A DNA stretch of 64,000 bases from Gammaproteobacteria bacterium (GTDB lineage: Bacteria > Pseudomonadota > Gammaproteobacteria > Ga0077554 > Ga007554), in the NCBI GenBank assembly GCA_040183005.1, contig JAMPIW010000002.1:124001-188000 (forward strand). The letters run 5' to 3'. Each line of letters opens with the position of its first letter. Positions within the stretch are counted from its first letter, which is position 1. The translations under genes and the position numbers were made by a program. The notes beneath the pieces are model-generated. The model was not told the origin of the DNA. It ran no database searches and worked only from the letters and a program-made list of their open reading frames with translations. Positions 9,018-56,503 of this stretch are shown piece after piece.

Positions 9018-9035
9018 TGTCAACGCGCGCGCTTG

Positions 9036-9290: not shown

Positions 9291-9337
9291 ACCTAGCCGT
9301 CTGTTGGACGGGGGAATGCTCTTCCACGGAGTTCTCC

Positions 9338-10271: not shown

Positions 10272-10354
10272 TTAAGTTCATTATATTGTATCCGATAACC
10301 TTGTAATATCCGATAATCTTGATTTATTCGTTTTGGGCCGACAGGACACCACTT

Positions 10355-11227: not shown

Positions 11228-11236
11228 AGCGGCATT

Positions 11237-12448: not shown

Positions 12449-12464
12449 ATGGCTTTCGCAGTTT

Positions 12465-15483: not shown

Positions 15484-15505
15484 AGGCTCAAACAGGAGGA
15501 AAGTC

Positions 15506-16162
15506 ATGCGTAAAATTACCCCACCACAAATCACGCTGTTTTTTTTGCTATTCGGCAGCATTCTAGTGTTTGGCATCGCCACCGCCTACGGACTGCTGGG
15601 CGCATTGCCGCTGGGCGATTTTCGCGGCGTCAGCGTGGTGGGGGGCGCAGTCGTGTTCATTTACCTCTACGCCTTTGCCGTGTACCGGCTGTTTCTGCGC
15701 CTCATGCCGCTCAAAGAGGGTGAACTGGCCGAGGGTACGCGGGAGGAATTCGCAGCCCAGGTCAACAGCCTATTCTACCTGATGATTTTCAACAGCCTGA
15801 TTCGCACCCACTTCCTGCCGGCGCCGCTGATGCGGCTGGTGTATCAGGCGCTGGGGTCGCGCATGGGCGAAAACACTTACAGTGTTGGCGCTATCCTCGA
15901 CCCGCCGCTCACCGAGTTCGGAGCCAACTGCATCATCGGCCATGATGCCGTGCTGTTTTGTCACGCCATCGAGGGCCGGCACTTCGCGCTTTCCCGCATC
16001 CGGGTCGGTGACAATGTCACCATCGGCGCCACCGCCGTCATCATGCCCGGCGTCAGCATCGGCGATGGCGCCATTGTCTCGGCGGGCGCCGTGGTACTCA
16101 AAGACACCCAGATCGGCCCGAATGAAGTCTGGGGCGGCGTGCCGGCAAAGCGCCTCAGATAG
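15506..16162 (+). CDS. Left-handed beta-helix acyltransferase (pair A)
   Basis: A 218-residue protein with two N-terminal membrane helices (LFFLLFGSILVFGIATAYGLLG, VSVVGGAVVFIYLYAFAVYRLFL) and a C-terminal hexapeptide-repeat beta helix (VGDNVTIGATAVIMPGVSIGDGAIVSAGAVVLKD...GGVPAKRLR). The beta helix includes the catalytic-type His in IIGHDAVLFCHAIEG. It has a strong AGGAGG site before ATG. It pairs with the glycosyltransferase upstream and is paralogous to the protein at 20511-21155. Likely an O-acyltransferase acting at the membrane on a glycan or glycolipid. Confidence 0.82.
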   Translation: MRKITPPQITLFFLLFGSILVFGIATAYGLLGALPLGDFRGVSVVGGAVVFIYLYAFAVYRLFLRLMPLKEGELAEGTREEFAAQVNSLFYLMIFNSLIRTHFLPAPLMRLVYQALGSRMGENTYSVGAILDPPLTEFGANCIIGHDAVLFCHAIEGRHFALSRIRVGDNVTIGATAVIMPGVSIGDGAIVSAGAVVLKDTQIGPNEVWGGVPAKRLR

Positions 16163-42256: not shown

Positions 42257-42730
42257 TCACCCGGGTGACGCGAGCACGCGCATCTGGTCGCCCCAGGCGT
42301 TGGGCCAGGGGCGGCGCATCACCTTCTCCAGCACGGCATCGGGCGAGCCCACCAGCCGTTCCACGACCTCCGGGGCCAGGAGCGTCAGCCGCATGACCCG
42401 GCGCACCTGTGTCACGTCCATGCCTTCGGCCTCGGCGATCTCCGCCACCGACGCAGCCCGCTGCTCATCCAGCAGGCGTTGCCAGTGGTGTGCCAGTCCG
42501 AGCGCCCGCATCAACGCGGTGTCCTGCGCGGCCGACCGGGCTTCCCGCTCCCGGGTGGCCTCGGACAGAAATTCCTGCGGCGCGTCCAGCGGCGTGATGA
42601 CCTGCTTCTTCAAACCCCGGCGCACCAGCGTCCAAGGCAGGAAAGTTTCCATCTGCACGCCGCCAGCAGGCAGCGGCGTCTGATACGTCACTGGGTCGCC
42701 CTTGGCGTGGCCGCGATGCTTCTTGCTCAT
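42257..42730 (-). CDS. Small protein with ParB-like helical region (recombinase operon, last gene)
   Basis: A 157-residue protein, start ATG 42730 with a GAGGAGG site. A basic N-terminus leads to METFLPWTLVRRGLKKQVITPLD, then a helical part: AHHWQRLLDEQRAASVAEIAEAEGMDVTQVRRVMRLTLLAPEVVERLV, which has a helix-turn-helix look (the part ending RLTLLAP resembles the KorB/ParB HTH). It overlaps the upstream paralogue by 4 bases (ATGA). Possible role: DNA-binding partner of the recombinase, such as a directionality factor. No family name recognised. Confidence 0.65.
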   Translation of the reverse strand: MSKKHRGHAKGDPVTYQTPLPAGGVQMETFLPWTLVRRGLKKQVITPLDAPQEFLSEATREREARSAAQDTALMRALGLAHHWQRLLDEQRAASVAEIAEAEGMDVTQVRRVMRLTLLAPEVVERLVGSPDAVLEKVMRRPWPNAWGDQMRVLASPG

Positions 42731-43098
42731 ACGTCCTCCTCGAAGGTGGCCATGAGCTGGCGCTGGGCGTGCCAGTCGACCGTCAGGCGGTTTCGCTGAA
42801 ACCACATCAGCGTCAGCCGCCGTGGCTGCTTGCCCGCGATGAACTGCTCAATGATGTCGGGGGCCAGCAGGGTCAGGCGCAGCAGTTCGTTGACCACCGA
42901 GTGGTGCAGCTTCTCGGCGCGGGCGATGGCCGAACCGCTCTGCATCGCGCCGGTGTCCAGCAGGTGCTGCCAGTAAAAGGCCCGTGCCACACCGTCGAGC
43001 AGGGTCACGTCGTGGACGCTGCGCTCGTCGGCAGCCACGCGTTGGACGCCCCGGCGGCGAAACGTCAGGGGCACAAAGGTTTCCATCGACTCGTCCAT
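42727..43098 (-). CDS. Small paralogue of the neighbouring helical protein
   Basis: A 123-residue protein with the same plan as the gene downstream: METFVPLTFRRRGVQRVAADE, then FYWQHLLDTGAMQSGSAIARAEKLHHSVVNELLRLTLLAPDIIEQFIAGKQP. The shared pieces (METF.P, WQ.LLD, RLTLLAP) show the two arose by duplication, but the N-terminal basic extension and C-terminal tails differ. It overlaps the recombinase stop (ATGA at 43098) and is translationally coupled. Function unknown; DNA binding is likely. Confidence 0.68.
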   Translation of the reverse strand: MDESMETFVPLTFRRRGVQRVAADERSVHDVTLLDGVARAFYWQHLLDTGAMQSGSAIARAEKLHHSVVNELLRLTLLAPDIIEQFIAGKQPRRLTLMWFQRNRLTVDWHAQRQLMATFEEDV

Positions 43099-44486
43099 CA
43101 GGCTTCGACCTCCAGCAGTTCGGCACCGATGCTGTCCGGGGCGAACTCCGCGATCAGCGCGTTCCAACCCACCTCACGCCACTTCACCTTGATCCCCTGC
43201 ACCTCGCCCGCGTGGACGAGGTCGATGCGCTCGATCATCAGATTGGCGATGCGGTGGCGCTCGACCGGGAACAGTTGATCCCAGACGTTGTTGAGCCGTC
43301 CCATCGCCATCACGGTGGTGGCCTCGTCGATCTGGGCCCCGTTGCGTTGGATGTGCCGCACCACCGACGCTACGGTCTCCGGGCTGGTCAGCACCGTGCG
43401 GATCTGGGCCACCACCGCCCCCTCGATCTCCAGCGCAGGCAGGCGCTCGTAGCTCTTGCCCGGCGCGCCGAACCTCGCTTCCGACTTGGACACGTAGTAG
43501 TGGTATTTGCGCCCGTTCTTGCGCGAGTAGGTCGGGTACATCCGCTCGCCTGAGGGTGCGTACAGCAGGCCGCGCAGCAAGGCGTCGGTGCGCGACCTGA
43601 TCTTGGTTTCCACCGACCGGGTGTGACCGTCCTTGGCCAGCACCTCGTGAACCCGGCCCCACAGACCGGGATCGATGATGGCTTGATGCACGCCCGGGTA
43701 CCAACTGCCCTTGTGCGACAACTCCCCGAGGTAGATGCGGTTGCGCAGCAGCTTGTGCAGATACTTCTTGTCGATGCGCGTGCCCGCCCGCGTCTGGCCG
43801 TCCTGTGTCGTCCACGCCTTGGTCGTGATGCCATCCAGCGTCAGGTTGGCGGCAATCTGGGTGGGCGAGCCGATGGTCAGCATCTCCTCAAAGATTCGCC
43901 GCACCACCGCCGCCTCCGCGTCGTTGATGACCAGCAGACGGTTCTCGACGTCGAAGCCGAGCGGCGGCACGCCACCCATCCACATCCCTTTGCGCTTGCT
44001 GGCGGCGATCTTGTCGCGGATGCGCTCGCCGGTGACCTCGCGCTCGAACTGGGCGAAGGACAGCAGCACGTTGAGCATCAACCGCCCCATCGAGGTGGTG
44101 GTGTTGAACTGCTGCGTGACCGACACGAACGACACGCCTTGGCGCTCAAACACTTCGACCATCTTGGAGAAGTCGGCGAGGCTGCGCGTCAGGCGGTCGA
44201 TCTTGTAGACCACCACGATGTCGATCTGGCCGCGCTCAATGTCGGCCATCAGGCGTTTTAGCCCGGGACGATCCGTGTTGCCGCCGGAGAAGCCGGGGTC
44301 GTCGTAGTCGTCGGCCACCGGAATCCATCCTTCTGCGCGTTGGCTGGCGACGTAGGCGTGGCCAGCCTCCTTCTGCGCGTCGATGGAGTTGAACTCCTGG
44401 TCAAGGCGCTCGTCCGACGACACCCGGCAGTAGACGGCGCAGCGTTTGCGCGCCTTGGGAGAGGCGATTTGGGTGGCGTCGCTCAT
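43098..44486 (-). CDS. Large serine recombinase
   Basis: A 462-residue integrase of the large serine family. The resolvase domain has the nucleophile Ser23 in VYCRVSSDERLDQEFNSIDAQ, the DPGFSGGNTDRPGLKRLM and VVVYKIDRLTRSLADF motifs and SFAQFEREVTGERIRDK. The recombinase domain (GGVPPLGFDVENRLLVINDAEAAVVRRIFEEML) follows, then a region like the zinc ribbon (GLLYAPSGERMYPTYSRKNGRKYHYYV) lacking its Cys pairs. ATG 44486 overlaps the DUF2924 stop. It is likely to integrate the phage-like element to its right. Confidence 0.92.
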   Translation of the reverse strand: MSDATQIASPKARKRCAVYCRVSSDERLDQEFNSIDAQKEAGHAYVASQRAEGWIPVADDYDDPGFSGGNTDRPGLKRLMADIERGQIDIVVVYKIDRLTRSLADFSKMVEVFERQGVSFVSVTQQFNTTTSMGRLMLNVLLSFAQFEREVTGERIRDKIAASKRKGMWMGGVPPLGFDVENRLLVINDAEAAVVRRIFEEMLTIGSPTQIAANLTLDGITTKAWTTQDGQTRAGTRIDKKYLHKLLRNRIYLGELSHKGSWYPGVHQAIIDPGLWGRVHEVLAKDGHTRSVETKIRSRTDALLRGLLYAPSGERMYPTYSRKNGRKYHYYVSKSEARFGAPGKSYERLPALEIEGAVVAQIRTVLTSPETVASVVRHIQRNGAQIDEATTVMAMGRLNNVWDQLFPVERHRIANLMIERIDLVHAGEVQGIKVKWREVGWNALIAEFAPDSIGAELLEVEA

Positions 44487-44935
44487 TGCGCACCTGCCTT
44501 GCCGGTCAGGCCGAAGAACAGTGGCCCCGACCAGTGCGTGCCGGTGATCTGCCGGGCCACGGCTGTCAGGCTCTTGAAGGTGCTGCCCTCGTACTCGAAC
44601 AGACCTTCGGCGGTGACCGCCACCTTGTGCTCGCGGTCGCCCCATTCGCGCAGCAGCACGGTGCCGGGCGCGAAGTTGGTGTCGCGCGGGCGAGCCCGTA
44701 GCTTGATCTTGGAATGCTTGGCACCGATGGCCTCCAAGCGCTGGCGCGTGTTGTGCGCCAGACCGCCGAAGGCTTCCTCCTGCATCTTGTAGGCGATGCG
44801 CGACTCAATGAATACGCGGTTCGGGTTGATGGGGCGGCTGCTGAAGTACCGATCCCACACTGGCCACAACTCGGCGATGGGCAGGCTCGACAGCTCCGCG
44901 ATCCGCGCGGCGACGGATGCTTGTTTCTCGTTCAT
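44483..44935 (-). CDS. DUF2924-type protein
   Basis: A 150-residue protein with the DUF2924 pattern: VAARIAELSSLPIAELWPVWDRYFSSRPINPNRVFIESRIAYKMQEEAFGGLAHNTRQRLEAIG, then a small beta-rich part (GTVLLREWGDREHKVAVTAEGLFEYEGSTFKSLTAVARQITGTHWSGPLFFGL). DUF2924 genes commonly precede serine recombinase genes in phages and other elements, as here, and may take part in recombination. It is coupled to the recombinase by ATGA at 44483-44486. ATG 44935 follows an AGGAG site in the upstream gene. Confidence 0.88.
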   Translation of the reverse strand: MNEKQASVAARIAELSSLPIAELWPVWDRYFSSRPINPNRVFIESRIAYKMQEEAFGGLAHNTRQRLEAIGAKHSKIKLRARPRDTNFAPGTVLLREWGDREHKVAVTAEGLFEYEGSTFKSLTAVARQITGTHWSGPLFFGLTGKAGAQ

Positions 44936-45126
44936 CACAACTTCTCCTGTTGATAGGGGGTTGTATGAACGCGCTGGTCGGGCAGGAAGCCAAGGCCAAC
45001 TTCTCTCTGTTTTGGCGCTTCTGCGACGACGGTGCGGACGATGGCGGCCGCAAGGATGGCGGTGATTTCGCCAGCGCGGGCGCTGGCGGACATCTCCGAG
45101 GGAGATGCGAGTTCGAGGTTCTTCAT
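44935..45126 (-). CDS. Small protein at the head of the recombinase operon
   Basis: A 63-residue protein starting at ATG 45126 (GGAG site): MKNLELASPSEMSASARAGEITAILAAAIVRTVV, then VGLGFLPDQRVHTTPYQQEKL. It ends in an ATGA overlap with the DUF2924 start. The C-terminal LGFLPDQRVHT portion is encoded by the 27-bp leader repeat also found upstream of three other phage genes. I do not recognise the family. Confidence 0.65.
   Translation of the reverse strand: MKNLELASPSEMSASARAGEITAILAAAIVRTVVAEAPKQREVGLGFLPDQRVHTTPYQQEKL
44968..44994 (-). repeat. 27-bp leader repeat, copy D
   Basis: Plus-strand consensus AACGCGCTG(T/G)TC-N6-GAAGCCAAG. It lies 32 bases upstream of the DUF2924 start and inside the 3' part of the small gene. 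Related copies: 60496-60522, 61510-61536 and 61802-61828. Confidence 0.7.
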
Positions 45127-45289
45127 GACGGCTCCGAGGAATTGCAACCGTCTCAGATGATGTGCGCGATGTTCCGAAGCGGATGGCAATTCCGGGTAAT
45201 CGCGCTCATCCGGTGGCGCGGCCACGAAGCCCCGGCAGGCCAGCGGCGCTTGTCTGGCAGGTAAACCTGATTGCGCGTTAACGAAACGG

Positions 45290-45318
45290 TTGACAGGTCC
45301 CGATCTGCTCGATACGAT
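45290..45318 (+). promoter_or_regulatory. Sigma-70 promoter of the XRE gene
   Basis: TTGACA at 45290-45295 and TACGAT at 45313-45318 with a 17-base spacer. The start codon of the XRE gene is 37 bases further on, with the operator-like repeat between. Confidence 0.8.
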
Positions 45319-45325
45319 GGCGTCA

Positions 45326-45345
45326 ATTAACTAATCACGCAATTG
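45326..45345 (+). promoter_or_regulatory. Candidate operator, copy 1
   Basis: ATTAACTAATCACGCAATTG. The same motif recurs at 46524 before the next transcription unit (15 of 20 identical). Lies over the expected transcription start of the XRE gene, as for self-repression. Confidence 0.6.
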
Positions 45346-45354
45346 GGTCACGAC

Positions 45355-45633
45355 ATGGCATTTGGTGCCTACATCAGACAGAAGAGGGAGGCGAAGGGCA
45401 TTCAGATGAATGACTTCGCCCGGCAGCTGGACATCTCGCCTGCCTACTGGTCGCGCATAGAGCGCGACATCGAGAAGCCACCTAAGGACGAGCTGATCCG
45501 CAAGGCGGCAGAAATCCTTGGCGAGAATGTCGACGACGCCTTTGTTGAGGCCAGCCGCCTTCCGCCAGACATGCGCGACGACGTGGGGGGCCTGGTACGG
45601 ATGTATCGCAAGCAAGCGACGGGGGACAAGTGA
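45355..45633 (+). CDS. XRE-family repressor (ImmR-like)
   Basis: A 92-residue protein with an N-terminal HTH_3 domain: FGAYIRQKREAKGIQMNDFARQLDISPAYWSRIERDIEKPPKDELIRKAAEILG, then a short Asp-rich tail. ATG 45355 was chosen; the frame also has a TTG at 45343. Its stop is adjacent to the metallopeptidase start. This pairing, together with the divergent recombinase operon, is the arrangement of ImmR/ImmA switches, where the peptidase cuts the repressor after a signal such as DNA damage. It probably binds the two GTTAAC/CGCAAT repeats. Confidence 0.85.
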   Translation: MAFGAYIRQKREAKGIQMNDFARQLDISPAYWSRIERDIEKPPKDELIRKAAEILGENVDDAFVEASRLPPDMRDDVGGLVRMYRKQATGDK

Positions 45634-46470
45634 ATGCCGGTGTTGACTCTTGGCTACCGGCATTGCGACCGAAAACGCCCCAGCTACATCAAGAATTCCG
45701 AGATTGAGGGCATCGCCGTTTTGGCCCGCCAGCAACTGGTGGATGCGGCTGCCGATGCCATCCCGCTCGCCACCCTGAGCGCCATCTCCGGCCTGAAGAT
45801 CAACGGCGTGGTCTTCGACCTGTTCGTCGGCACCGGGAATGTTGTGCATGACGAATGCGGCAACCCTGTTCTGGGCATCTGTGAGTACGACCCCGGCGTG
45901 CCGGACACGGCGATGGTGTCGGTGTCGCCGGTTGGCGTGAACGCCAGCGAGGAACTGGTACTGAGCACCCTCGGCCACGAACTCAGCCACGCCATTTTCG
46001 ATGCGCCAGGATGGATCGTCGATGCCAGCAAGGGGCCGGGTCTGTTCGATGAACCCAGCGACGCGGCGCGGCGCGCCTACCGCACGACCACACGCGACGT
46101 CGAGCACTTGGCGAAAGTCACGCCCGTCGCCGAGGCGGCTGCGACGCCCTCCCTGGCGATTCCGGGCCACACCACCAAGGAAGAATACTTCGCCGAGCTG
46201 CGTGCCAACGAGTTCATGGGGTCGTTGCTGGTGCCGCGCCAACGCCTGAATCTGGCGGTCGAAGAGTTGGCTCCGAAACACGGTGTGACGATCCACCGCA
46301 GCCCGTCGCTTGATCCCGATTTGCCCGGCACCTGCCTTCACCTGACGGCTGATGGCGATATCGAATGTTTGCAGAAGGCCGTGGCCAAGCGCTTCGGCGT
46401 CAACCGGCGGTTCATCCAGGTGCGGATGGAGCGCTATGGCCTTCTCAAGCCGGGGGCCAAGATCTTCTGA
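45634..46470 (+). CDS. ImmA/IrrE-type metallopeptidase
   Basis: A 278-residue protein with the zinc-binding HEXXH motif HELSHAIFD near residue 114, a downstream acidic EEYFAELRANEFMGSLLVP segment (a likely third zinc ligand and the family-typical E-x-x-A-N-x-F-A/M) and a C-terminal winged-helix-like part (KAVAKRFGVNRRFIQVRMERYGLL). It follows the XRE gene without a gap. ImmA cleaves ImmR to derepress the element. A role as antitoxin-type partner is possible, but the repressor-protease reading fits the context best. Confidence 0.85.
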   Translation: MPVLTLGYRHCDRKRPSYIKNSEIEGIAVLARQQLVDAAADAIPLATLSAISGLKINGVVFDLFVGTGNVVHDECGNPVLGICEYDPGVPDTAMVSVSPVGVNASEELVLSTLGHELSHAIFDAPGWIVDASKGPGLFDEPSDAARRAYRTTTRDVEHLAKVTPVAEAAATPSLAIPGHTTKEEYFAELRANEFMGSLLVPRQRLNLAVEELAPKHGVTIHRSPSLDPDLPGTCLHLTADGDIECLQKAVAKRFGVNRRFIQVRMERYGLLKPGAKIF

Positions 46471-46523
46471 TCAAAGCCTTCGTCCCGCCGCCGACTGCGT
46501 GTCGGCTTTTTTTGACCCGCCCA

Positions 46524-46543
46524 GTTAACCACTCGCGCAATCG
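46524..46543 (+). promoter_or_regulatory. Candidate operator, copy 2
   Basis: GTTAACCACTCGCGCAATCG, the same motif as at 45326. It lies 30 bases upstream of the start codon of the next gene, so the XRE protein may repress it too. Confidence 0.6.
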
Positions 46544-46572
46544 CGCACTTCGTTTAGAAAAGGAAATTGCCT

Positions 46573-48009
46573 ATGCCAGCGGACGAACAAATCATCGCTC
46601 AAGAACACAACCAGCCGACCGCCGCGCCGCAGCAGTCCGCGAAGCAGGCGCGATCCCGCCAATCGGACGATGGCCCGGAAATTCTGCCGTGTATGGAGCA
46701 CTTCGTGACCCTGGTTCGCAAGGCCAAGCGACCCGGCCTCGCCTTGCTCCTGGTCGAGCGCGCCAGCGCCACGTCGCTGCCGGAAGTGGCGGCGCTGACA
46801 GACGTGGCCAAAGGCATCCTCGCGGTGCAGTCGCGCAAGGCGATGTTCCACGCCGTCGCCAAGCTCGGCTCGGACGTGCAGCAGCACATCGAGCGGGCGG
46901 CCGAGCGCGTGGTGCTGCTCGATGACGAGTACGGTGCGCAGGCCGTCCAGTCTCTCCTTGACGACGAGGACATCAATGACGCAGCGATCATGGCCGCGCC
47001 GAGTGATCGCTACAGCCGGGCCCTGTTTCTCTGCCTGCTGCAGGACTTTCCGGAGACCGGTGCCACTCGCGATCAGCGCTTCGACAATGCCGAGCGCGTG
47101 CAAGTGATGCATCGGCAATGGAAGAGCGAGAACTACTCCAGCCACTACCTCGGCCCGAAGGGCGTGGTGCCGAGCATTGATGCCGACGTTGAGGGTGTAT
47201 TGCGCGGGCGCATTTCGGCGCTGTTCCCGCAAGTGGCTCCCGACCAAATCATCATCGAGCAGTTCACGCGCCGTGATCTCGCGCATGCCGACCGCTGCGG
47301 CGGCAAGGACTCTGACGAGGTCACGCCCGTGCTCCTGCACACCCTGACTGCAACCTTCAACGGGTCGACGGCGCACTTCCGGCAGGTTGCCAACGGCGAG
47401 GTGGTCGAGCACGAAGAACCTGCAGCGATGTCGGCCAGCTTTTCGTGGGAGCCCGGCACCGGTGCGCTCGGCGTGTTCTGCGAAGACCGTGAGGTGCGCC
47501 GTGAACTGGCGACCATCTTCCGCGATATCGTCTTGGCGTGCGACGGGGAGATCAACGACATGCCGATGCGCGAATTCGACCTGTTCGGATTCTCGACACC
47601 GGCGATGCTCAAGCGCATCGAGCAGGAGCGAGTGGCGGGCATCGAAAAGATTTCGATCTTGCAGATCAAGGTGGCGCGGCCGTTCGAGCAGCAAACCACC
47701 GACGCGGCCAACGGACGTGAGCTGATCCAGCATCTGTCGAGCACGATGCTGATCGGCAAGGATCGGCGCGACACCCGGCAGATTTATCAGGTCGCCTATG
47801 ACGACTATGGCATCGACGACTTGACGGAATACACGCTGGCGCAGGTGAAGTTGGTATTCAGGATGGCCAAACAGCCGCACCGCAAGGCCCACAACGTCGC
47901 CGTCCAAATCACGTCGCCGAACGGTCTGAACGACAAGAGCAAGACCGAAGATGACCGCAAGCGCGTTCTGGAACAGCTCACGCGAATTGGGGTGCTCCGT
48001 GAGTTCTGA
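46573..48009 (+). CDS. Unrecognised protein under the XRE/ImmA operator
   Basis: A 478-residue protein of unknown function. It has no signal peptide or membrane helix. It is rich in charged residues and helices (EHFVTLVRKAKRPGLALLLVERASATSLPEVAALTDVAKGILA). A middle region has a beta character (LHTLTATFNGSTAHFRQVANGEVVEHEEPAAMSASFSWEPGTGALGVFCEDREVRRELATIFRDIVL). No catalytic motif that I can name. ATG 46573 has an AAAAGGAA site. The operator copy 2 precedes it, and its 3' end overlaps the next gene by 11 bases. Candidate element-defence, regulatory or replication gene. Confidence 0.75.
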   Translation: MPADEQIIAQEHNQPTAAPQQSAKQARSRQSDDGPEILPCMEHFVTLVRKAKRPGLALLLVERASATSLPEVAALTDVAKGILAVQSRKAMFHAVAKLGSDVQQHIERAAERVVLLDDEYGAQAVQSLLDDEDINDAAIMAAPSDRYSRALFLCLLQDFPETGATRDQRFDNAERVQVMHRQWKSENYSSHYLGPKGVVPSIDADVEGVLRGRISALFPQVAPDQIIIEQFTRRDLAHADRCGGKDSDEVTPVLLHTLTATFNGSTAHFRQVANGEVVEHEEPAAMSASFSWEPGTGALGVFCEDREVRRELATIFRDIVLACDGEINDMPMREFDLFGFSTPAMLKRIEQERVAGIEKISILQIKVARPFEQQTTDAANGRELIQHLSSTMLIGKDRRDTRQIYQVAYDDYGIDDLTEYTLAQVKLVFRMAKQPHRKAHNVAVQITSPNGLNDKSKTEDDRKRVLEQLTRIGVLREF

Positions 48010-48955
48010 AGGCGCTACCGCAATGTCGGCGCATCTGAGCTTTCTGGCAGTGCTGGAGCGGCTGCCCCGGGTTGAGTACCGCGTCATGGCGGCGGCGCTC
48101 GGACGATGCAGACCAACGTTCCTGCAACGACGATGGGTCACGGAAGAGGACTACCTCAGCCATGTGATGGTCCCCGTCCGGGATTCGGAGCAGGAAGTCG
48201 AGGTTGAGATCGATCAGGATGCGGCGGTTTACCGGTACCGCAGCCCGCAGCAGCGATCACGAACAGTTGAGCGACCCCTTCCCGACATCGCGTTGTACGC
48301 CCTCCAGGTGGATGCGTGGCTCGCCGACTTGGCGTCCTTGATCGGCATCGAAGATCGACAGCGTTCCGACCGCCGACATCGCGTGCCGGGCCACCTGTGG
48401 CACCTCGGGGAAGTGCGAATCGCGGGCACCCACGACTTCGCCCCGGTGTTCGTTGCCCGAGCGTGGGAGCGTGCTCCTGTTGCCGCGATGACCTCGGTTT
48501 TGAGTGATCCGATCTGGCCGCGTGGCGGCATCGTGTTGCGGCATCAGCGAGATCCAGTTGAGCTGCCCCGCGACCATGTCATGCGCGGTCTGGACGAGTT
48601 CGTTCGCGTGGACGACGGTCAGGACGTTTTCGACGCGAGCGCATTCGACAGGGTGCTGCGTGGCTTCATCACCCCCACCGGTGCGCCGGAGCCAGAGCAG
48701 TTCTTCCAAGGCAATCGTTTGAAGTTGCCGCACTTCTCCGAATCACGCGAGCTGTCTGCGGAGCGGGCCAAGATCGTCAAGCAGATGTGGAGTGCCGACG
48801 GAAAGAACGCGCCCGAAGTTTCCTGGGCCGAGGTCAACAGGATCGCCAATACCGGCTACCAGTCGTTCGATGACGCCTTCGGCGGAAAGGCTGAGCGCGA
48901 GGACGTGATCGCATTGGTCAAGCGCGGCAAATACCGCCTGCGACGCAACCCATAA
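47999..48955 (+). CDS. Unrecognised partner protein of the preceding gene
   Basis: A 318-residue cytoplasmic-type protein, GTG start at 47999, overlapping the previous stop by 11 bases (ATG 48023 is possible). It contains a VMVPVRDSEQEVEVEIDQDAAVYRYRSPQQRSR segment, GHLWHLGEVRIAGTHDFAPVFVARAW and a C-terminal helical domain (SAERAKIVKQMWSADGKNAPEVSWAEVNRIANTGYQSFDDAFGG...ALVKRGKYRLRR). No membrane helix or signal. I do not know the family. Tight coupling with the 478-residue gene implies a joint role. Confidence 0.7.
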   Translation: MSSEGATAMSAHLSFLAVLERLPRVEYRVMAAALGRCRPTFLQRRWVTEEDYLSHVMVPVRDSEQEVEVEIDQDAAVYRYRSPQQRSRTVERPLPDIALYALQVDAWLADLASLIGIEDRQRSDRRHRVPGHLWHLGEVRIAGTHDFAPVFVARAWERAPVAAMTSVLSDPIWPRGGIVLRHQRDPVELPRDHVMRGLDEFVRVDDGQDVFDASAFDRVLRGFITPTGAPEPEQFFQGNRLKLPHFSESRELSAERAKIVKQMWSADGKNAPEVSWAEVNRIANTGYQSFDDAFGGKAEREDVIALVKRGKYRLRRNP

Positions 48956-49004: not shown

Positions 49005-49040
49005 TTCGATGTGCCCATTTCATCTAGGAGGCACATCGAA
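49005..49040 (+). promoter_or_regulatory. Hairpin covering the ribosome site of the AlpA-like gene
   Basis: TTCGATGTGCC (49005-49015) and GGCACATCGAA (49030-49040) are perfect arms with a 14-base loop. The AGGAGG site lies across the loop and the right arm, immediately before ATG 49041. Folding would partly hide the site, so translation of the next gene may be controlled. Confidence 0.6.
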
Positions 49041-49304
49041 ATGCAAACCCAAGTTCCATCAATCGAATCCGGTCGGAATCCCCGCCGGATGAATCCCGGC
49101 GGTGCAACCTGCATCGCACTCGACGAAAACGAGCTCGCCATCCGCTGGGGGCTCTCCGTCAAGACGCTGCGCCGCTGGCGTCAAGAGCAGCTCGGCCCCA
49201 TCTACTGCAAGCTCGGTCGCCGGGTCACCTACCTCCTGCACGAAATCGAAGCCTTCGAGCGCCGCGTCTCGCGCTACTCGAGCTTCACTCGTGCGTACCA
49301 GTGA
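49041..49304 (+). CDS. AlpA/MerR-type HTH protein
   Basis: An 87-residue protein with an excisionase-type helix-turn-helix: LDENELAIRWGLSVKTLRRWRQEQLGPIYCKLGRRVTYLLHEIEAFERR. ATG 49041 follows an AGGAGG site inside a hairpin. Such proteins act as phage regulators or excisionases. It opens the rightward replication/recombination cluster. Confidence 0.85.
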   Translation: MQTQVPSIESGRNPRRMNPGGATCIALDENELAIRWGLSVKTLRRWRQEQLGPIYCKLGRRVTYLLHEIEAFERRVSRYSSFTRAYQ

Positions 49305-49315
49305 GGAGGACGGCC

Positions 49316-49798
49316 ATGAGCGATCTGACCATCTTCCCCGTCGACATCGCTGAGATGTCTGTGAGCCAACTGGCCGCGCTGCCGCCCGAGCAGAAGTGCG
49401 AGGTCGACAAGAACCTTGATGCTGCCATCGACTGGCTAAAGAAGGCTCGCACCAAGTTCGATGCGGCGCTGGAACAGTGCTACGGCGAGCAGGCCCGTGT
49501 CGCACTGCGTGAATCAGGCCGTGACTTTGGTACCGCCCACATCAGCGACGGCCCGCTGCACATCAAGTTCGAGCTGCCCAAAAAGGTCAGCTGGAACCAG
49601 AAACAGTTGGGCGAAATCGCCGAGCGCATCGTGGCCTCAGGCGAGAAGGTCGAGGGCTACCTCGACGTCAAGCTCTCAGTGTCCGAGTCCCGGTACATCA
49701 ACTGGCCGCCTGCATTGCAGCAGCAATTCGCGGCCGCCCGCACGGTCGATTCCGGCAAGCCGTCCTTCACCCTGAGCACCGATGGGGGTGAGGCATGA
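49316..49798 (+). CDS. Phage protein of unknown function
   Basis: A 160-residue protein: short N-terminal part (LAALPPEQKCEVDKNLDAAIDWLKKARTKFDAALEQCY), then FGTAHISDGPLHIKFELPKKVSWNQKQLGEIAERIVASGEKVEGYLDVKLSVSESRYINWPPALQQQF. ATG 49316 has a GAGGAGGACGG leader, and the stop overlaps the ATPase start. The pattern recalls small phage proteins near Sak4-like ATPases, but I cannot name a family. Confidence 0.72.
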   Translation: MSDLTIFPVDIAEMSVSQLAALPPEQKCEVDKNLDAAIDWLKKARTKFDAALEQCYGEQARVALRESGRDFGTAHISDGPLHIKFELPKKVSWNQKQLGEIAERIVASGEKVEGYLDVKLSVSESRYINWPPALQQQFAAARTVDSGKPSFTLSTDGGEA

Positions 49799-50643
49799 AG
49801 CGGCTACCCATCGTGTCCGCCGTCGAGCGGATGGCCGAGCGCAAGGGCGTGAAGCTGCTGATGCTGGGCAAGTCCGGCATCGGCAAGACGTCTCGGCTCA
49901 AAGACCTCGACCCCGCCACCACACTGTTCCTTGACATCGAGGCAGGCGACTTGGCGGTCGCCGACTGGCCGGGCGACACCATCCGCCCGGCGTCCTGGCC
50001 CGAGAGCCGCGACTTCTTCGTGTTCCTTGCGGGCCCGGACAAGTCGCTGCCGCCGGAGAGCGCGTTCTCGCAGGCGCACTACGACCACGTCATCGAGAAG
50101 TTTGGCGATGCGACGCAGCTCGGTCGCTACCAGACCTTCTTCCTTGACTCGATCACGCAACTGTCTCGCCAGTGCTTTGCGTGGTGCAAGACGCAGCCCG
50201 GGGCGGTCAGTGATCGTTCCGGCAAGCCCGATCTGCGCGCGGCCTACGGGCTGCTCGGCCAGGAAATGATCGGCGCGTTGACCCACCTGCAGCACGCCCG
50301 TGGCAAGAACGTTGTGTTCGTGGCGATCCTCGATGAGCGACTGGATGACTTCAATCGCAAGGTGTTCGTCCCGCAGATCGAAGGCAGCAAGACCAGCCTG
50401 GAGCTGCCCGGCATCGTCGATGAGGTCGTGACGCTGGCCGAGATCAAGGCCGAGGACGGCAGTTCCTACCGCGCCTTCATCACGCACACCGTCAATCCCT
50501 ACGGCTTCCCGGCCAAAGACCGCAGCGGTCGTCTCGACCTGCTGGAGCCGCCGCATCTCGGCGCGCTGATCGCCAAGTGCGCGGGCGCTGTCCCCGCGCT
50601 AGCCAGCGCCGCCAACCCCGCACACATCGAATCTCAGGAGTAA
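49795..50643 (+). CDS. RecA-fold phage ATPase (Sak4/AAA_24-like)
   Basis: A 282-residue P-loop protein. Walker A GKSGIGKTSRL near residue 23, a Walker B-like FFLDSITQL and a core common to phage nucleotide-binding proteins of the AAA_24/Sak4 group. It is followed by a putative ssDNA-binding protein, the neighbourhood typical of single-strand annealing systems. The role is probably homologous recombination or repair of phage DNA. It starts in an ATGA overlap with the preceding gene. Confidence 0.85.
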   Translation: MKRLPIVSAVERMAERKGVKLLMLGKSGIGKTSRLKDLDPATTLFLDIEAGDLAVADWPGDTIRPASWPESRDFFVFLAGPDKSLPPESAFSQAHYDHVIEKFGDATQLGRYQTFFLDSITQLSRQCFAWCKTQPGAVSDRSGKPDLRAAYGLLGQEMIGALTHLQHARGKNVVFVAILDERLDDFNRKVFVPQIEGSKTSLELPGIVDEVVTLAEIKAEDGSSYRAFITHTVNPYGFPAKDRSGRLDLLEPPHLGALIAKCAGAVPALASAANPAHIESQE

Positions 50644-50648
50644 TCGCA

Positions 50649-51275
50649 ATGACCGCATGGAATGACTTCAACGACGCCGACTCTCAGCAATCCGGCTTCG
50701 ATCTGATCCCCAAGGGCACCGTCGTGCCGGTGCGAATGACCATCAAGCCGGGTGGCTATGACGACCCCGAGCAAGGCTGGGGTGGCGGCTACGCCACCGA
50801 ATCGTTCGAGACCGGTTCCATCTATCTGGCCGCCGAGTTTGTGGTCACCGCTGGCGATCATGCCAAGCGCAAGATGTGGAGCAACGTCGGCCTGCTCTCC
50901 AAGAAAGGCCCGACCTGGGGCCAGATGGGGCGCAGCTTCATCCGGGCCGCGCTCAACAGCGCCCGCAACGTCCACCCGCAAGACAACAGCCCACAGGCCG
51001 CCGCCGCGCGCCGCATCAATGGCTTCGCCGAACTGGACGGTCTGGAGTTCTTGGCGCGCGTCGACATCGAGAAGGACGCCAAGGGTCAAGACCGCAACGT
51101 GGTGAAGCTGGCAGTCGAGCCCGACCACCCCGACTACGCCAAGTTGAAAGGTGTGCCGACGAAGGGCAGTCCGGGCGGTGGCAACTCCGGCGCTCCCGCG
51201 CAGGCGGCCCCGGCCTATTCCGCGCCCACCCCGCAACGCGCACCAGTGACGGGCAAACCGTCCTGGGCTCAGTGA
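50649..51275 (+). CDS. Putative phage ssDNA-binding protein
   Basis: A 208-residue protein with a compact N-terminal beta region (NDADSQQSGFDLIPKGTVVPVRMTIKPGGYDDPEQGWGGGYAT, AAEFVVTAGDHAKRKMWSNVGLLSKKGPTWGQMG) and a low-complexity tail (GSPGGGNSGAPAQAAPAYSAPTPQR) like the acidic or flexible tails of SSB proteins. AGGAG site before ATG 50649. It sits directly after the Sak4-like ATPase. The assignment rests on shape and place, not on a clear motif. Confidence 0.65.
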   Translation: MTAWNDFNDADSQQSGFDLIPKGTVVPVRMTIKPGGYDDPEQGWGGGYATESFETGSIYLAAEFVVTAGDHAKRKMWSNVGLLSKKGPTWGQMGRSFIRAALNSARNVHPQDNSPQAAAARRINGFAELDGLEFLARVDIEKDAKGQDRNVVKLAVEPDHPDYAKLKGVPTKGSPGGGNSGAPAQAAPAYSAPTPQRAPVTGKPSWAQ

Positions 51276-51285
51276 GGAGACGGCT

Positions 51286-52140
51286 ATGAATGCATCCGTC
51301 CTCACTGCCAGTCACTACGGCGTCGTGCGCTTCGGCGATCTGCAATGCGAGGCCGTCGTCCTCAAGGGCGGCGAGCGTGGCTACGTTCGTCGCCAACTGG
51401 CCAAGCTGCTGGGTTTCCACGAGACGCACAAGGGTGGCCGATTTGCCCGGTTTCTTGCCGACTTCGCTCCTAAGTCCTTGTCGGCATTGGAGAAAACTCG
51501 TGAGCCGATTCTGTTGCCGTCAGGTCGGCAGGCGCAGTTCTTCCCGGCCGGGATCATTGCCGACGTCGCGTCGGCGGTGGTCAGCGCGGCCATCAACGGC
51601 ACGCTGCACAAGGCCCGCCAGGGCATCGTGCCCAATTGCATGAAGATCATGCGCGCGCTGGCCACCACCGGCGAGGTCGCGCTGATCGACGAGGCGACGG
51701 GCTACCAGTACCACCGCGCGCCTGACGCGCTGCAGGAACTGATCTCCAAGCTGCTGCGCCAGTCGTGCTCTTCGTGGGAGCGCCGCTTCCACCCGGACTA
51801 CTACCGCGCCCTCTACCGGCTGTTCGGCTGGAAGTACCAGGGCCACGACCAAAACCCGCCCCACGTTGTCGGTCAGATCACGCAGCGCTGGGTCTACGGC
51901 CCGGTGCTGCCCGCCACGCTGATCGACGAGATTCGCGCCCGCAAGGGCATCTCGCAGAAGCACCACCAGTGGCTGTCCGATCAGGGCCTCGCCCGTCTGG
52001 AAACGCAGATTCACGCGGTCACCGCCATTGCGCGCAGCTCGACCTGCTACCGCGACTTCGACCGCCGCTGTGAAGCGGCCTTCGCTGGCGGCGCGCTGCA
52101 GCTGGCGCTGCTGGCCGAAGACTTTGAGGAGGGGGCGTGA
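51286..52140 (+). CDS. P63C-domain protein
   Basis: A 284-residue protein with the P63C phage domain: LIDEATGYQYHRAPDALQELISKLLRQSCSSWERRFHPDYYRALYRLFGWKYQGH, preceded by a part like the ANT/Rha-type region (VRRQLAKLLGFHETHKGGRFARFLADFAPKSLSALEKT). The domain is found in prophages, with unknown role. The stop overlaps the next start (ATGA-type). Confidence 0.85.
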   Translation: MNASVLTASHYGVVRFGDLQCEAVVLKGGERGYVRRQLAKLLGFHETHKGGRFARFLADFAPKSLSALEKTREPILLPSGRQAQFFPAGIIADVASAVVSAAINGTLHKARQGIVPNCMKIMRALATTGEVALIDEATGYQYHRAPDALQELISKLLRQSCSSWERRFHPDYYRALYRLFGWKYQGHDQNPPHVVGQITQRWVYGPVLPATLIDEIRARKGISQKHHQWLSDQGLARLETQIHAVTAIARSSTCYRDFDRRCEAAFAGGALQLALLAEDFEEGA

Positions 52141-52637
52141 AATGCTGGGTCTGCAAACGACAGGCCCGGGGATTCGGTCACACCGACAACCGACACGGTA
52201 TCGGCGATCCCCGGCGCTACCCCATCGACTGGGTGTTCTGCTCGCAGCGCTGCCAATCCGCGTTCCACGCGATGTACGGCAACTGGCTGCGCGCCAAGGA
52301 TGGTCGGACCGACATCAAGGGGGTCGCCATGATCGATCCCTCTGATATCGAGCTGGCCGCGATACGCAAGTGCCTCAAGTCCTTCGGCGAGGCGGCAGGC
52401 GAGATCGGCTTCACCAAACCGCTGGGCAACTACTCCGAAGCCGAGGCGCTGCAGGTGATCGACGCCATCGTCACTTGCTATACCGAGGCGATGGTTGAGC
52501 ACCACGAGGCGAGCAAGTACCCGCCCGTGCGCGGCATGACGCCAACGCCCGACCCCATGACACCGAGTGCGGCCAATCCGTTCGCGGATCTGGACGACGA
52601 CCTGCCTTGGGAAGAACCGAAGGGGAAGAAGCCATGA
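52137..52637 (+). CDS. DUF6511-like zinc-motif protein
   Basis: A 166-residue protein with an N-terminal Cys cluster, MKCWVCKRQARGFGH...WVFCSQRCQSAFHAMYG, which looks like a zinc-binding knuckle. It then has a helical part (LAAIRKCLKSFGEAAGEIGFTKPLGNYSEAEALQVIDAIVTCYTEAMVEHHE) and a Pro/Asp-rich tail (FADLDDDLPWEEPKGK, typical of ssDNA-binding-protein tails). I believe this is the DUF6511 type but the name is from memory. Confidence 0.68.
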   Translation: MKCWVCKRQARGFGHTDNRHGIGDPRRYPIDWVFCSQRCQSAFHAMYGNWLRAKDGRTDIKGVAMIDPSDIELAAIRKCLKSFGEAAGEIGFTKPLGNYSEAEALQVIDAIVTCYTEAMVEHHEASKYPPVRGMTPTPDPMTPSAANPFADLDDDLPWEEPKGKKP

Positions 52638-53371
52638 TGGACTTCAACTCCACTTCGAGCATCTCGGGCCAGATCACTGCGCTGGTCGACGCCGGGATGC
52701 AGCGGGCGCGAGCCCAGCAGTCCGAGCGCCAGTACCTTGGTGCCTCGCGGTTGGGCGCTGCCTGCGAGCGTGCGCTGCAGTTTGAGTACGCCAAGGCTCC
52801 CGTCGATCACGGCCGGGACACCCCGGGCCGGATGCTGCGCATCTTCGAGCGCGGCCACGTCATGGAGGACTGCATGGTCGCGTGGCTGCGCGACGCCGGT
52901 TTCGAATTGCGTACCCGCAGGGCCGATGGCGAGCAGTTTGGCTTCTCCGTGGCTGATGGCCGTCTGCAGGGCCACATCGACGGCGTCATCGTCGATGGCC
53001 CGGAGGGCTTTGCCTACCCGGCGCTCTGGGAAAACAAGTGCCTCGGCATGAAGTCCTGGCGCGAGCTGGAGAAGAACCGGCTCGCCGTGGCCAAGCCCGT
53101 ATACGCCGCGCAAGTGGCGATCTACCAAGCCTATCTCGAACTGCACGAGCACCCGGCGATCTTCACGGCGCTCAACGCCGACACGATGGAGATCTACACC
53201 GAGGCCGTGCCCTTTGACGCAGCCCTGGCCCAGCGAATGTCTGATCGGGCGGTGAAGGTCATCACGGCGACCGAAGCGGGAGATCTCCTGCCGCGCGCCT
53301 TCAATGACCCGACCCACTTCGAGTGCCGGATGTGCGCGTGGCAAGACCGCTGCTGGAGAACACAAGCATGA
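52634..53371 (+). CDS. PD-(D/E)XK nuclease-like protein (RecB/Cas4 type)
   Basis: A 245-residue protein. An early segment YLGASRLGAACERALQFEYAKAP is followed by the metal-site elements LQGHIDGVIVDGPEG (Asp) and ALWENKCLGMKSWRELEK (E-x-K), then YAAQVAIYQAYLELH (QxxxY), all in the order of the PD-(D/E)XK fold. The C-terminal ECRMCAWQDRCWRTQA holds Cys residues like those of RecB/Cas4-type iron-sulfur or zinc ends. The probable role is an exonuclease in phage recombination. Overlaps both neighbours by ATGA. Confidence 0.82.
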   Translation: MMDFNSTSSISGQITALVDAGMQRARAQQSERQYLGASRLGAACERALQFEYAKAPVDHGRDTPGRMLRIFERGHVMEDCMVAWLRDAGFELRTRRADGEQFGFSVADGRLQGHIDGVIVDGPEGFAYPALWENKCLGMKSWRELEKNRLAVAKPVYAAQVAIYQAYLELHEHPAIFTALNADTMEIYTEAVPFDAALAQRMSDRAVKVITATEAGDLLPRAFNDPTHFECRMCAWQDRCWRTQA

Positions 53372-53622
53372 CCGACAACAACACCCCGGCCACCGGCATC
53401 GAGCCGATGATCGATGCCAAGCAGGCGGCCGCCGCGTTGCGCCTGCCGTACTACTGGTTCGCCGACCACGCGATGCGCACCAAGTACCGGATTCCGCACT
53501 ACCTGATGGGTGGTCTGGTCCGCTACCGGCTGTCCGAACTCTCTGCGTGGGCCACGCGTACCACCGCCGTTCAGGGCCGTGATTCCCATGATGCGGACGC
53601 ACCTGTCGAGGGAGCCGAATGA
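53368..53622 (+). CDS. Small HTH-like phage protein
   Basis: An 84-residue protein beginning in an ATGA overlap: IEPMIDAKQAAAALRLPYYWFADHAMRTKYRIPHYLMGGLVRYRLSELSAWATR. The pattern is an AlpA/helix-turn-helix-like fold. It precedes the primase gene and overlaps it. It may be a regulator or a helper of replication start. Confidence 0.7.
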   Translation: MTDNNTPATGIEPMIDAKQAAAALRLPYYWFADHAMRTKYRIPHYLMGGLVRYRLSELSAWATRTTAVQGRDSHDADAPVEGAE

Positions 53623-55910
53623 TCGACTTCAACGACACCACCCAACCTGCGGAGCACAACAGGGAATCTGAACGAGACGAGATTCGCGCCGACTTGCTTG
53701 CGCGTCTGGAGTCGGTGCTGACCACGATGTTTCCGGCTGGCAAGAAGCGCCGTGGCAAGTTCCTGATCGGCGACATCCTCGGCAGTCCAGGTGACAGCCT
53801 CGAGGTGGTGCTGGAAGGTGAGAAGGCCGGTCTGTGGACGGATCGTGCCACCGGCGATGGCGGCGACATCTTCGCCCTGATCGCGGCCTATCTCGGTGCG
53901 AACGTCCACACCGATTTCCCTCGCGTGCTGGATGAAGCTGCCGATCTGCTCGGGCGGTCGCGGTCGGTGCCAGTGCGCAAGGCGAAGAAGGAAGCGCCTG
54001 TAGACGACCTCGGCCCGGCCACGGCGAAGTGGGACTACTTCGATGCCGGTGGCAAGCTGATCGCCGTCGTCTACCGCTATGACCCACCGGGAGGCAAGAA
54101 GGAATTCCGACCGTGGGACGCGAAGCGCCGCAAGATGGCCCCGCCTGAGCCGCGCCCGCTGTTCAACCAGCCGGGCATCGGTGCGGCCAGTCACGTCGTC
54201 CTGGTCGAGGGCGAGAAGTGCGCGCAGGCCTTGATCGCCAGCGGCGTGGTGGCCACCACCGCCATGCACGGTGCCAATGCCCCGGTCGACAAGACCGACT
54301 GGTCGCCACTGGCTGGCAAGACGGTGCTGATCTGGCCCGACCGCGATGCGCCAGGGTGGGACTACGCCGACCGCGCGTCGCAGGCGATCTTGCAGGCAGG
54401 CGCGACCTCGGTCGCCATCCTCATGCCACCCGACGACAAGCCGGAGGGGTGGGACGCTGCAGATGCCATTCCCGAAGGTTTCGATGTCGGTGGCTTTCTG
54501 GCCGTCGGCGAGCGGATGCCGGTGATGCGCTCGGTGGAGGAAGCGCCTTCGCCAGACTTGCTGACGGGCATTGATTGGACGACCGAGGATGGCCTGTCCA
54601 GCGCTTTCACCCGCCGCTATGGCGAAGACTGGCGCTACTGTGCCCTGTGGGGCAAGTGGCTGGTCTGGACGGGTGTGCGCTGGAATCCCGATCAGGTGCT
54701 CTACGTGTCGCATCTTTCCAGGGGCATTTGCCGCAACGCCTCGCTGAAAGCGGACACGCCGAGGCTCAAGGGCAAGCTGGCCAGTTCCGCCACGATTTCG
54801 TCGGTTGAAAAGATCGCGCGCTCTGACCCGAAGCACGCTTCCACCGCAGAGGAATGGGACGCCGATGTGTGGGCGCTGAATACCCCCGGTGGCGTGGTCG
54901 ATCTACGCACCGGCCGGATGCGCCCGCACCGGCGGGACGACCGAATGACCAAGGTGACCACGGCTACTCCGCAGGGCAATCCGGACAGTGCCTGCCCAAC
55001 GTGGCGAGGGTTCCTGACAGACGTCACCGGCGGCGATGTCGATCTGATGGCCTACCTGCAACTGATGGTTGGCTACTGCCTGACGGGCGTCACCAGCGAG
55101 CACGCGCTGTTCTTCCTGTACGGCACGGGCGCGAACGGCAAGTCGGTGTTCGTCAACGTGCTAACCACCATCCTGGGCGACTACGCGGCCAACGCCCCGA
55201 TGGACACTTTCATGGAGGCGCGCAATGACCGACACCCCACCGATCTCGCCGGGCTGCGCGGTGCACGATTCGTGTCATCCATCGAAACGGAGCAAGGGCG
55301 GCGCTGGAACGAGTCCAAGGTCAAGGCCATCACCGGTGGCGACAAGGTGTCCGCGCGCTTCATGCGCCAGGACTTCTTCGAGTACCTGCCGCAGTTCAAG
55401 TTGGTGATCGCGGGCAATCACAAGCCGTCGATCCGCAACGTCGACGAGGCGATGAAGCGTCGACTGCACCTGATCCCATTCACGGTGACGATCCCGCCCG
55501 AGCGCCGCGACGGCAGGCTGACCGAGAAGCTGCTCAAGGAACGCGATGCGATTTTGGCGTGGGCCGTCGAGGGCTGCAGCCGCTGGCAAAGCCAGGGCTT
55601 GAAGCCGCCCGCCAGCGTGGTGTCGGCGACCGAGGAGTATTTCGAGGCAGAAGATGCGCTCGGGCAGTGGATCGAAGAACGCTGTCTGCTGGCCAAGTCG
55701 CACCGCGAAGGTGTCTCCGAACTGTTCGCCGATTGGCGTGAATGGGCCGAGCGCGCTGGCGAGTACGTGGGCTCGGTCAAACGCTTCTCGGAGCTGATGG
55801 CGACTCGCAAGTTCGACAAGTGTCGGCTGACCGGAGGGGCTCGCGCCATCGCGGGCATCGCCCTCAGGCCCAAGCCGTACAGCCACGCCTACCCCTACCG
55901 CGATGACTGA
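53619..55910 (+). CDS. Phage P4-type DNA primase-helicase
   Basis: A 763-residue protein. A TOPRIM-like part (HVVLVEGEKCAQALIASGVVATTAMHGAN, VLIWPDRDAPGWDYADRA) is followed by the P4-family D5 region and a superfamily 3 helicase with Walker A GTGANGKSVF near residue 505, Walker B-like FVSSIETEQGRRWNESKVK and the SF3 sensor stretch FKLVIAGNHKPSIRN. Primase and helicase are combined in one chain, as in phage P4 and many temperate phages. It would drive element replication. Confidence 0.92.
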   Translation: MIDFNDTTQPAEHNRESERDEIRADLLARLESVLTTMFPAGKKRRGKFLIGDILGSPGDSLEVVLEGEKAGLWTDRATGDGGDIFALIAAYLGANVHTDFPRVLDEAADLLGRSRSVPVRKAKKEAPVDDLGPATAKWDYFDAGGKLIAVVYRYDPPGGKKEFRPWDAKRRKMAPPEPRPLFNQPGIGAASHVVLVEGEKCAQALIASGVVATTAMHGANAPVDKTDWSPLAGKTVLIWPDRDAPGWDYADRASQAILQAGATSVAILMPPDDKPEGWDAADAIPEGFDVGGFLAVGERMPVMRSVEEAPSPDLLTGIDWTTEDGLSSAFTRRYGEDWRYCALWGKWLVWTGVRWNPDQVLYVSHLSRGICRNASLKADTPRLKGKLASSATISSVEKIARSDPKHASTAEEWDADVWALNTPGGVVDLRTGRMRPHRRDDRMTKVTTATPQGNPDSACPTWRGFLTDVTGGDVDLMAYLQLMVGYCLTGVTSEHALFFLYGTGANGKSVFVNVLTTILGDYAANAPMDTFMEARNDRHPTDLAGLRGARFVSSIETEQGRRWNESKVKAITGGDKVSARFMRQDFFEYLPQFKLVIAGNHKPSIRNVDEAMKRRLHLIPFTVTIPPERRDGRLTEKLLKERDAILAWAVEGCSRWQSQGLKPPASVVSATEEYFEAEDALGQWIEERCLLAKSHREGVSELFADWREWAERAGEYVGSVKRFSELMATRKFDKCRLTGGARAIAGIALRPKPYSHAYPYRDD

Positions 55911-56038
55911 TCAATCCGGTCGAGTGACAGATTTGACGGGTTTCCTGATTGACGCGCTACACGTGCGCGCACGTAAGGGGCGTTGTCCTGACAAACCGTC
56001 GCATCCGTCACTCGCCCACCCAACACGGAGTACATACG

Positions 56039-56503
56039 ATGAACACGACAATCCTGGCCCTTGATCTGGGCACACACACCGGGTGGGCCCTGCAGCACCT
56101 GGACGGCACCATCACCAGCGGCATGGAGTACTTCAAGCCGCAGCGATTCGAAGGCGGCGGAATGCGCTTCCTTCGATTCAAGCGCTGGCTCAACGAACTG
56201 CTCTCGACCAGCAATCACATCAACGCGGTGTTCTTCGAGGAAGTTCGGCGACACGCGGGAGTGGACGCAGCGCACGCCTACGGCGGCTTCATGGGACACC
56301 TGACCGCGTGGTGTGAGCATCACAACATTCCGTACCAGGGCGTTCCGGTCGGCACGATCAAGAAGCACGCGACCGGCAAAGGCAATGCGGGCAAGGACGA
56401 AATGATCACGTCCGTCCGCGAACGTGGTCACACCCCAGTCGATGACAACGAGGCCGACGCACTGGCCCTGCTGCACTGGGCCATCGATACGCAGGAGGTG
56501 TGA
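56039..56503 (+). CDS. RuvC-like Holliday junction resolvase
   Basis: A 154-residue protein with the RuvC/RNase H-like fold: first acidic residue in ILALDLGTHTGWAL, then VFFEEVRRHAG, PYQGVPVGTIKKHATGKGNAGKDEM and the last acidic pair in DDNEADALALLHWA. ATG 56039 follows a GGAG site. It lies in the recombination/replication module and probably cuts phage DNA junctions before packaging. Confidence 0.85.
   Translation: MNTTILALDLGTHTGWALQHLDGTITSGMEYFKPQRFEGGGMRFLRFKRWLNELLSTSNHINAVFFEEVRRHAGVDAAHAYGGFMGHLTAWCEHHNIPYQGVPVGTIKKHATGKGNAGKDEMITSVRERGHTPVDDNEADALALLHWAIDTQEV

Follow-up and report, generated by a model that had tools for sequence, protein, structure and literature searches.

An exchangeable repressor-peptidase cassette of AcaML1-related temperate phages with a candidate role in immunity

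INTRODUCTION

What does a pair of genes outside the known families do when it follows a repressor and a metallopeptidase that may control it? The question is raised by a 64,000-nucleotide stretch of gammaproteobacterial DNA (contig JAMPIW010000002.1, positions 124,001 to 188,000), which we call the window and in which a first-pass annotation had recognized an XRE repressor gene, the gene for a peptidase with a HELSH motif, and two genes, here A and B, that it could not place. It had likened the switch to ImmR/ImmA of ICEBs1 and offered early element functions or a defense or superinfection system as roles for the pair. The unit can now be recognized as an exchangeable cassette carried by a tailed, temperate relative of AcaML1, which is new, and we regard it as about an even call that this is an immunity cassette in which a repressor/peptidase switch silences a two-gene effector in the lysogen.

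RESULTS AND DISCUSSION

The unit lies in a prophage related to AcaML1

The unit sits in a tailed temperate phage, present as a prophage, that is related to Acidithiobacillus phage AcaML1, the closest annotated phage, with an ATPase 72% identical to that of the prophage; for the same protein, Wolbachia phage WO reaches 47 to 50% identity. Pfam identifies an integration operon at 42257 to 44938 on the reverse strand (the other genes and DNA elements given below with window coordinates lie on the forward strand), made up of two small genes, a serine recombinase (43098 to 44645) and a DUF2924 gene (44483 to 44938), and it runs divergent from XRE as had been described. On the other side of the unit is a conserved early operon (49041 to 56503) with HTH_17, phrog_2480, an AAA_24/Sak4-like ATPase, a Cas4-like nuclease, a primase, and RuvC. 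Terminase, portal, protease, and capsid genes, named by eye and from the AcaML1 layout, follow farther downstream and extend past the window end, and no conjugation genes were seen, which sets the host element apart from ICEBs1. Profiles built for this analysis found no second XRE/LexA-like repressor in the prophage, leaving XRE as the sole CI-like repressor found, and a search for att repeats gave only chance matches of at most 13 bases.

Whole cassettes are exchanged between near-identical flanks

Comparison of borders by blastn with two relatives, L083 and L097, places the exchangeable cassette at 45203 to about 49035. Homology to L083 stops at 45202 and restarts at 49036, with none inside and with flanking DNA 97.1% and 95.4% identical on the two sides, while homology to L097 stops at 45204 and restarts at 49041; L083 holds another cassette between the matching flanks. 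The integration operon is 97% identical (blastn) in a phage bearing a different cassette. Relatives found through A share the gene order of the window, and in several of them the flanks are 90 to 100% identical and XRE, M78, A, and B only 56 to 80%; in one (L014), DUF2924 is 100%, A 65%, and AAA_24 95% identical.

A survey with the downstream ATPase gene, chosen over A so that A would not bias the sample, returned 544 contig stretches, and the best 80 loci were classified. The slot was incomplete in 30 of these; 20 carry XRE, M78, A, and B, 7 carry a fused XRE-M78 with a PIN-like gene and a protein of ∼750 residues, and 4 carry HTH_17, PIN, and a ∼750-residue protein on the opposite strand. 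In another 18 the integrase module is turned the opposite way, and all of these are without A-B. Among these best 80 loci, A plus B or the fused form AB is present in 31 of the 32 phages that combine the divergent integrase layout with a complete slot. One locus (L089, 4222 to 4744) has lost the stretch between the opening codons of A and the middle of B by deletion, beside an intact leader, XRE, M78, and flanks, and A-B is therefore dispensable. Ten co-directional-integrase records tested, which may be fragments, lack A-B altogether. The idea that A is a core gene of all relatives was rejected on account of the co-directional-integrase phages without it. Of the 399 proteobacterial genomes that were sampled, 30 have a match to A, and among the better genomes such matches occur in 22 of 213 genera. 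In a Dactylopiibacterium locus (L026, 4110 to 6465), M78 and A are split into overlapping frames, apparently a decaying copy.

The sharply bounded slot thus swaps whole regulator-plus-effector cassettes between nearly identical flanks in a phage group that is widespread (544 contig stretches), which makes the genes occupying it a list of candidate exclusion systems, of which A-B is the commonest nameless one in these data.

The right border coincides with a hairpin around the HTH_17 ribosome-binding site, formed by an 11-bp inverted repeat (49005 to 49043) and also seen in L083, L097, L111, L116, L146, and L214. Its arms vary among relatives (CGATGTGCC/GGCACATCG, GGAGCAC/GTGCTCC, GGAACAC/GTGTTCC, GGGACTCC/GGAGTCCC) with complementarity kept, and since they differ yet remain paired, the hairpin suggests translational control of the HTH_17 gene.

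The XRE repressor probably controls A-B through a shared repeat

The XRE gene (45355 to 45633; 92 aa; Pfam HTH_31, 9.6e-11), the peptidase gene, and genes A and B were all confirmed where the first-pass annotation had put them. XRE adjoins the gene for an M78/ImmA-like metallopeptidase (45634 to 46470; 278 aa) that contains HELSH and ELRANEFMGSLLVP. Among 53 distinct relatives the peptidase motifs HE(L/I)(G/S)H and E(L/F)RANEFMG(S/A)LLVP are conserved, covering the catalytic HEXXH and the downstream glutamate. Profile matches to described families are weaker, with a match of 7e-6 between XRE and the PADLOC capH profile, a Pfam M78 score of merely 0.012 for the peptidase, no match of the peptidase to the PADLOC capP profile, and chance matches only in a PDB sequence search with it. 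The first motif is HELSH in the window (45980 to 45994), whereas 51 of 53 distinct M78-like frames in the count have HELGH.

The strong promoter claimed for XRE is the sole consensus-like one within 44900 to 46700 (sigma-70-like, TTGACA-17-TACGAT, 45290 to 45318), but 0.6 would be expected there by chance. For gene A no sigma-70-like promoter was found, and it may be transcribed from a nonconsensus promoter overlapping the repeat or by read-through. An intrinsic terminator that the first-pass annotation had missed lies after M78 and before A (46490 to 46506, or to 46513 at its widest) and is present in 55 of 55 loci.

One copy of an operator-like repeat separates the promoter from the start of XRE (O2, 45327 to 45347), and another lies in the leader of A (O3, TTAACNNNTCGCGCAATCGCGCAC, 46525 to 46551). 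Its core, TTAACNNNTCNCGCAAY, has zero-mismatch copies at 45327 and 46525 only, and two mismatches admit 4 further sites against 2.0 expected. Taken from the window alone, the likeness is not beyond chance, since 20 of 200 shuffles match its quality in an ungapped comparison; we judge the repeat real because it is kept before XRE in 54 and before A in 55 of 55 distinct relatives, in which the bases around O2 and O3 vary while the repeats persist. Two loci with a different XRE (L276 and L282) have a different repeat, again found both upstream of XRE and in the leader of A, in one of 19 bases with one mismatch, inverted, and in the other of 15 bases with one mismatch, neither equaled in quality by any of 200 shuffles. 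The conservation of the repeats and their change with the XRE type at both places support the wiring first suggested, in which the same repressor silences A-B and the peptidase would inactivate it, and repression through both repeats is well supported at the level of sequence. A candidate third operator, O1 (GCGTTAAC, 45270 to 45295), noticed by eye, abuts the −35 box upstream.

A and B correspond to two halves of one protein

Gene A (46573 to 48009; 478 aa) and gene B (47999 to 48955; 318 aa from a GTG start) belong to undescribed families, as the first-pass annotation had indicated: neither matches Pfam, PHROGs, NCBIfam, or PADLOC, and phage-collection searches with each gave no match. A Pfam scan of 51 relatives returned chance matches only, with no kinase or STAS domain, and the AB profile likewise met only chance matches among PDB sequences. 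Profile alignment of A to residues 10 to 413 of the ∼750-residue family (hhalign E value, 3.7e-10) and of B to residues 423 to 718 (1.3e-7), in preserved order, indicates that the two are the N-terminal and C-terminal halves of one ∼750-residue protein. Split A-B also accompanies a fused XRE-M78 and PIN in L227 and L290, and the split and fused forms therefore circulate through the same slot. The GTG start of B gives the 11-base overlap with A described earlier; most relatives instead begin B at an ATG homologous to 48023, which leaves a 13-base gap after A, and the GTG is plausible because this ATG reads AAG in the closest relatives (L003 to L005). To judge by the alignments, what is conserved in A and B does not resemble an enzyme active site, and hydropathy finds no hydrophobic or membrane segment in B (maximum 19-residue mean, 1.46).

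AlphaFold modeling of A by itself, from 18 close relatives, was unusable (pLDDT, 49.6) and was replaced by a fused AB target built with 51 rows, which gave a confident model with a pLDDT of 85.5 and a pTM of 0.72. The N-terminal part of the model is helical, the middle mixed, and the C-terminus composed of helices and small strands, consistent with a possible winged helix at the end of B/AB. Its best PDB match by Foldseek is RdgC (2owy; probability, 0.99; E value, 2e-3), with low TM-scores (0.17/0.33), and nothing convincing was found in a viral library. Profile comparisons of A or B with RdgC and DUF4747 stayed at noise, a test with little power because the control comparison of RdgC with DUF4747 fails too. 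Lambda RexA has an RdgC fold that was not found from its sequence, binds DNA nonspecifically, and adjoins CI (PMC11077077). That escape from sequence detection makes the predicted match worth testing, and we treat an RdgC/RexA-like fold of AB as a lead only.

Several regulator classes accompany A-B and the slot

Regions around A matches in proteobacterial genomes, scanned with Pfam, place A-B beside XRE plus M78 (co-directional or divergent), a fused XRE-M78 with PIN, a LexA-like regulator with an S24 peptidase, and WYL. CBASS, BREX, Pycsar, and DISARM operons are under DNA-damage-responsive control by regulators of the CapW (WYL) and CapH-plus-CapP types (PMC13373217). The pairing of A-B with several damage-responsive regulator classes makes it testable what merits DNA-damage gating in a prophage.

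The closest known counterpart of the window switch is CapH/CapP, with which it shares the succession of a small HTH repressor and an M78-type peptidase and, on the evidence of the repeats, a probable operator before both the repressor and the genes under its control. In L124, a related phage without A-B, the genes next to DUF2924 are a true CapH/CapP pair (CapH, 2.5e-24; CapP, 2.6e-55) and GmrSD (1e-39). The controlled genes in the window, however, form an undescribed family, and since capH matches weakly and capP not at all, we say that the switch would work like CapH/CapP and do not file it as a member. The ICEBs1 analogy drawn earlier is fair in so far as ImmR/ImmA and DdrO/PprI share the logic of an XRE protein with an HEXXH peptidase, although CapH/CapP is closer.

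The sister cassettes bring in other systems. Their regulators match RmrA (8e-26) and spr1629 (6e-13) and have PIN-type genes after them, in the manner of the RosmerTA/spr1629-type XRE-M78 antitoxins and PIN modules; in the window cassette, in contrast, XRE and M78 are separate genes, and neither a PIN nor an RmrT toxin gene is present. In AcaML1 the same slot holds gp6-gp7-gp8, annotated as hypothetical proteins and an excisionase. Here gp6 is an AB protein of ∼750 residues (27% identical to the L083 AB), the unit is inverted, and an excisionase-like HTH (HTH_17) and the PIN-like gp7 replace XRE and M78. Two phages without A-B (L102 and L136) have a QatC-like gene (3.5e-57) and a LexA-type HTH beside DUF2924. 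An integrase-adjacent set of a 704-residue QatC-like protein, a 263-residue partner, and a LexA-type HTH is seen in L102 (1302 to 4197), L136, L148, and L132 and is a candidate for another defense cassette in co-directional-integrase phages.

Outside the phage slot, A-B forms the first two genes before multi-ubiquitin, JAB, and ThiF on the same strand in L226 (4862 to 9543), with DUF499 and DUF1156 genes nearby, possibly a defense island. That A-B is a standard multi-ubiquitin partner was rejected, as none of 9 other multi-ubiquitin loci has it.

Proposed exclusion of rival phages compared with other roles

We propose that XRE would bind the repeat by its own promoter as well as the one in the A leader, regulating itself and holding A-B off. 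DNA damage or an invading phage would produce single-stranded DNA, upon which the M78 peptidase might cleave XRE and allow A-B to be made, a step modeled on CapH/CapP, PprI/DdrO, and ImmA/ImmR. Acting jointly on DNA as a nonenzymatic DNA-binding module, A and B would then block either the incoming phage or the infected cell. We infer this antiphage activity from the company in the slot, the regulator classes, and the predicted fold, and consider A-B a promising new candidate for the exclusion of rival viruses. Of the two roles first suggested, defense or superinfection fits better than early functions because the slot is exchangeable, L089 has lost A-B, and relatives carry other regulated gene sets there, with PIN, GmrSD, and QatC-like genes, some of them clearly antiviral. 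Counting against exclusion, A-B stands first ahead of the replication genes where it lies forward and comes close to a core gene within the divergent-integrase layout (31/32), the window peptidase fails to match the CapP profile, and with XRE still the sole CI-like repressor found, A-B might serve the phage's own switch.

On that account the cassette would be the lysogeny switch itself, with XRE as CI, M78 as the inducer-sensor, and A-B as early lytic functions, whether an activator or a replication or recombination helper made upon induction, which we think possible though on the unlikely side. The lack of any other XRE/LexA-like repressor among those searched for speaks for it, as do the place of A-B in the XRE+M78+A+B layout, first in the early operon and co-directional with it, and the possible winged helix modeled at the end of B; the immunity regions of lambdoid phages are likewise exchangeable. 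It is harder to reconcile with the 18 co-directional-integrase relatives without A-B near the slot and the ten records (possibly fragments) without it altogether, with the inversion of the HTH_17+PIN+AB unit relative to the early operon, with the loss in L089, with the L226 pair outside the slot by ubiquitin-like conjugation genes, and with the terminator that separates A-B from M78. Exclusion and a lysogeny switch can both hold in part, as in lambda cI-rexAB.

The lambda comparison extends to a two-gene unit beside the repressor in the immunity region and to the RdgC-like match of the AB model. That A-B is itself a true RexA/RdgC-fold exclusion system, a distant RexAB relative, is nevertheless very improbable in our estimation. 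The modeled match to 2owy and the RdgC fold, DNA binding, and CI-adjacent position of lambda RexA (PMC11077077) favor it, and RexAB of P. putida also lies downstream of a CI-like repressor (PMC12894663). Sequence similarity to RexAB is undetected, however, the profile comparisons stayed at noise (a low-power test), the TM-scores are low, B is not a membrane protein, unlike RexB, and A-B appears to be repressed whereas lambda rexAB is coexpressed with cI. We are doubtful, if somewhat less so, of the broader proposal that A-B/AB, split or fused, is a new DNA-binding phage-exclusion family that resides in a single hotspot across a large phage group, is coupled to varied DNA-damage-sensing regulators (XRE plus M78, LexA-S24, WYL, and PIN-linked XRE-M78), and has an RdgC/RexA-like core that would convert the sensing of damage into exclusion.

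A-B could also be a sensor/regulator or antitoxin-like module that controls a neighboring operon or toxin, as CapK/CapS and VapKSC do. CapK plus CapS and VapKSC have like neighbors (PMC13373217), PIN genes stand beside A-B/AB in the fused XRE-M78 and HTH_17 cassettes and in L227 and L290, and A-B precedes the multi-ubiquitin/JAB/ThiF operon in L226. We rate this improbable: the XRE+M78+A+B cassette has no PIN, so that the early operon would be the only evident target of control, the nine other multi-ubiquitin loci are without A-B, and Pfam finds no kinase or STAS domain.

Annotated and likely defense genes elsewhere in and beside these phages

AcaML1 carries an annotated Dcm methylase and McrBC near its right end (JX507079.1, 49572 to 54267), as annotated a second place for defense genes in AcaML1-type phages. 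Downstream of the prophage in L330 (∼6000 to 15800), type I restriction-modification-like subunits and a SIR2-like protein were recognized by eye, and these genes past the prophage are likely a host defense island.
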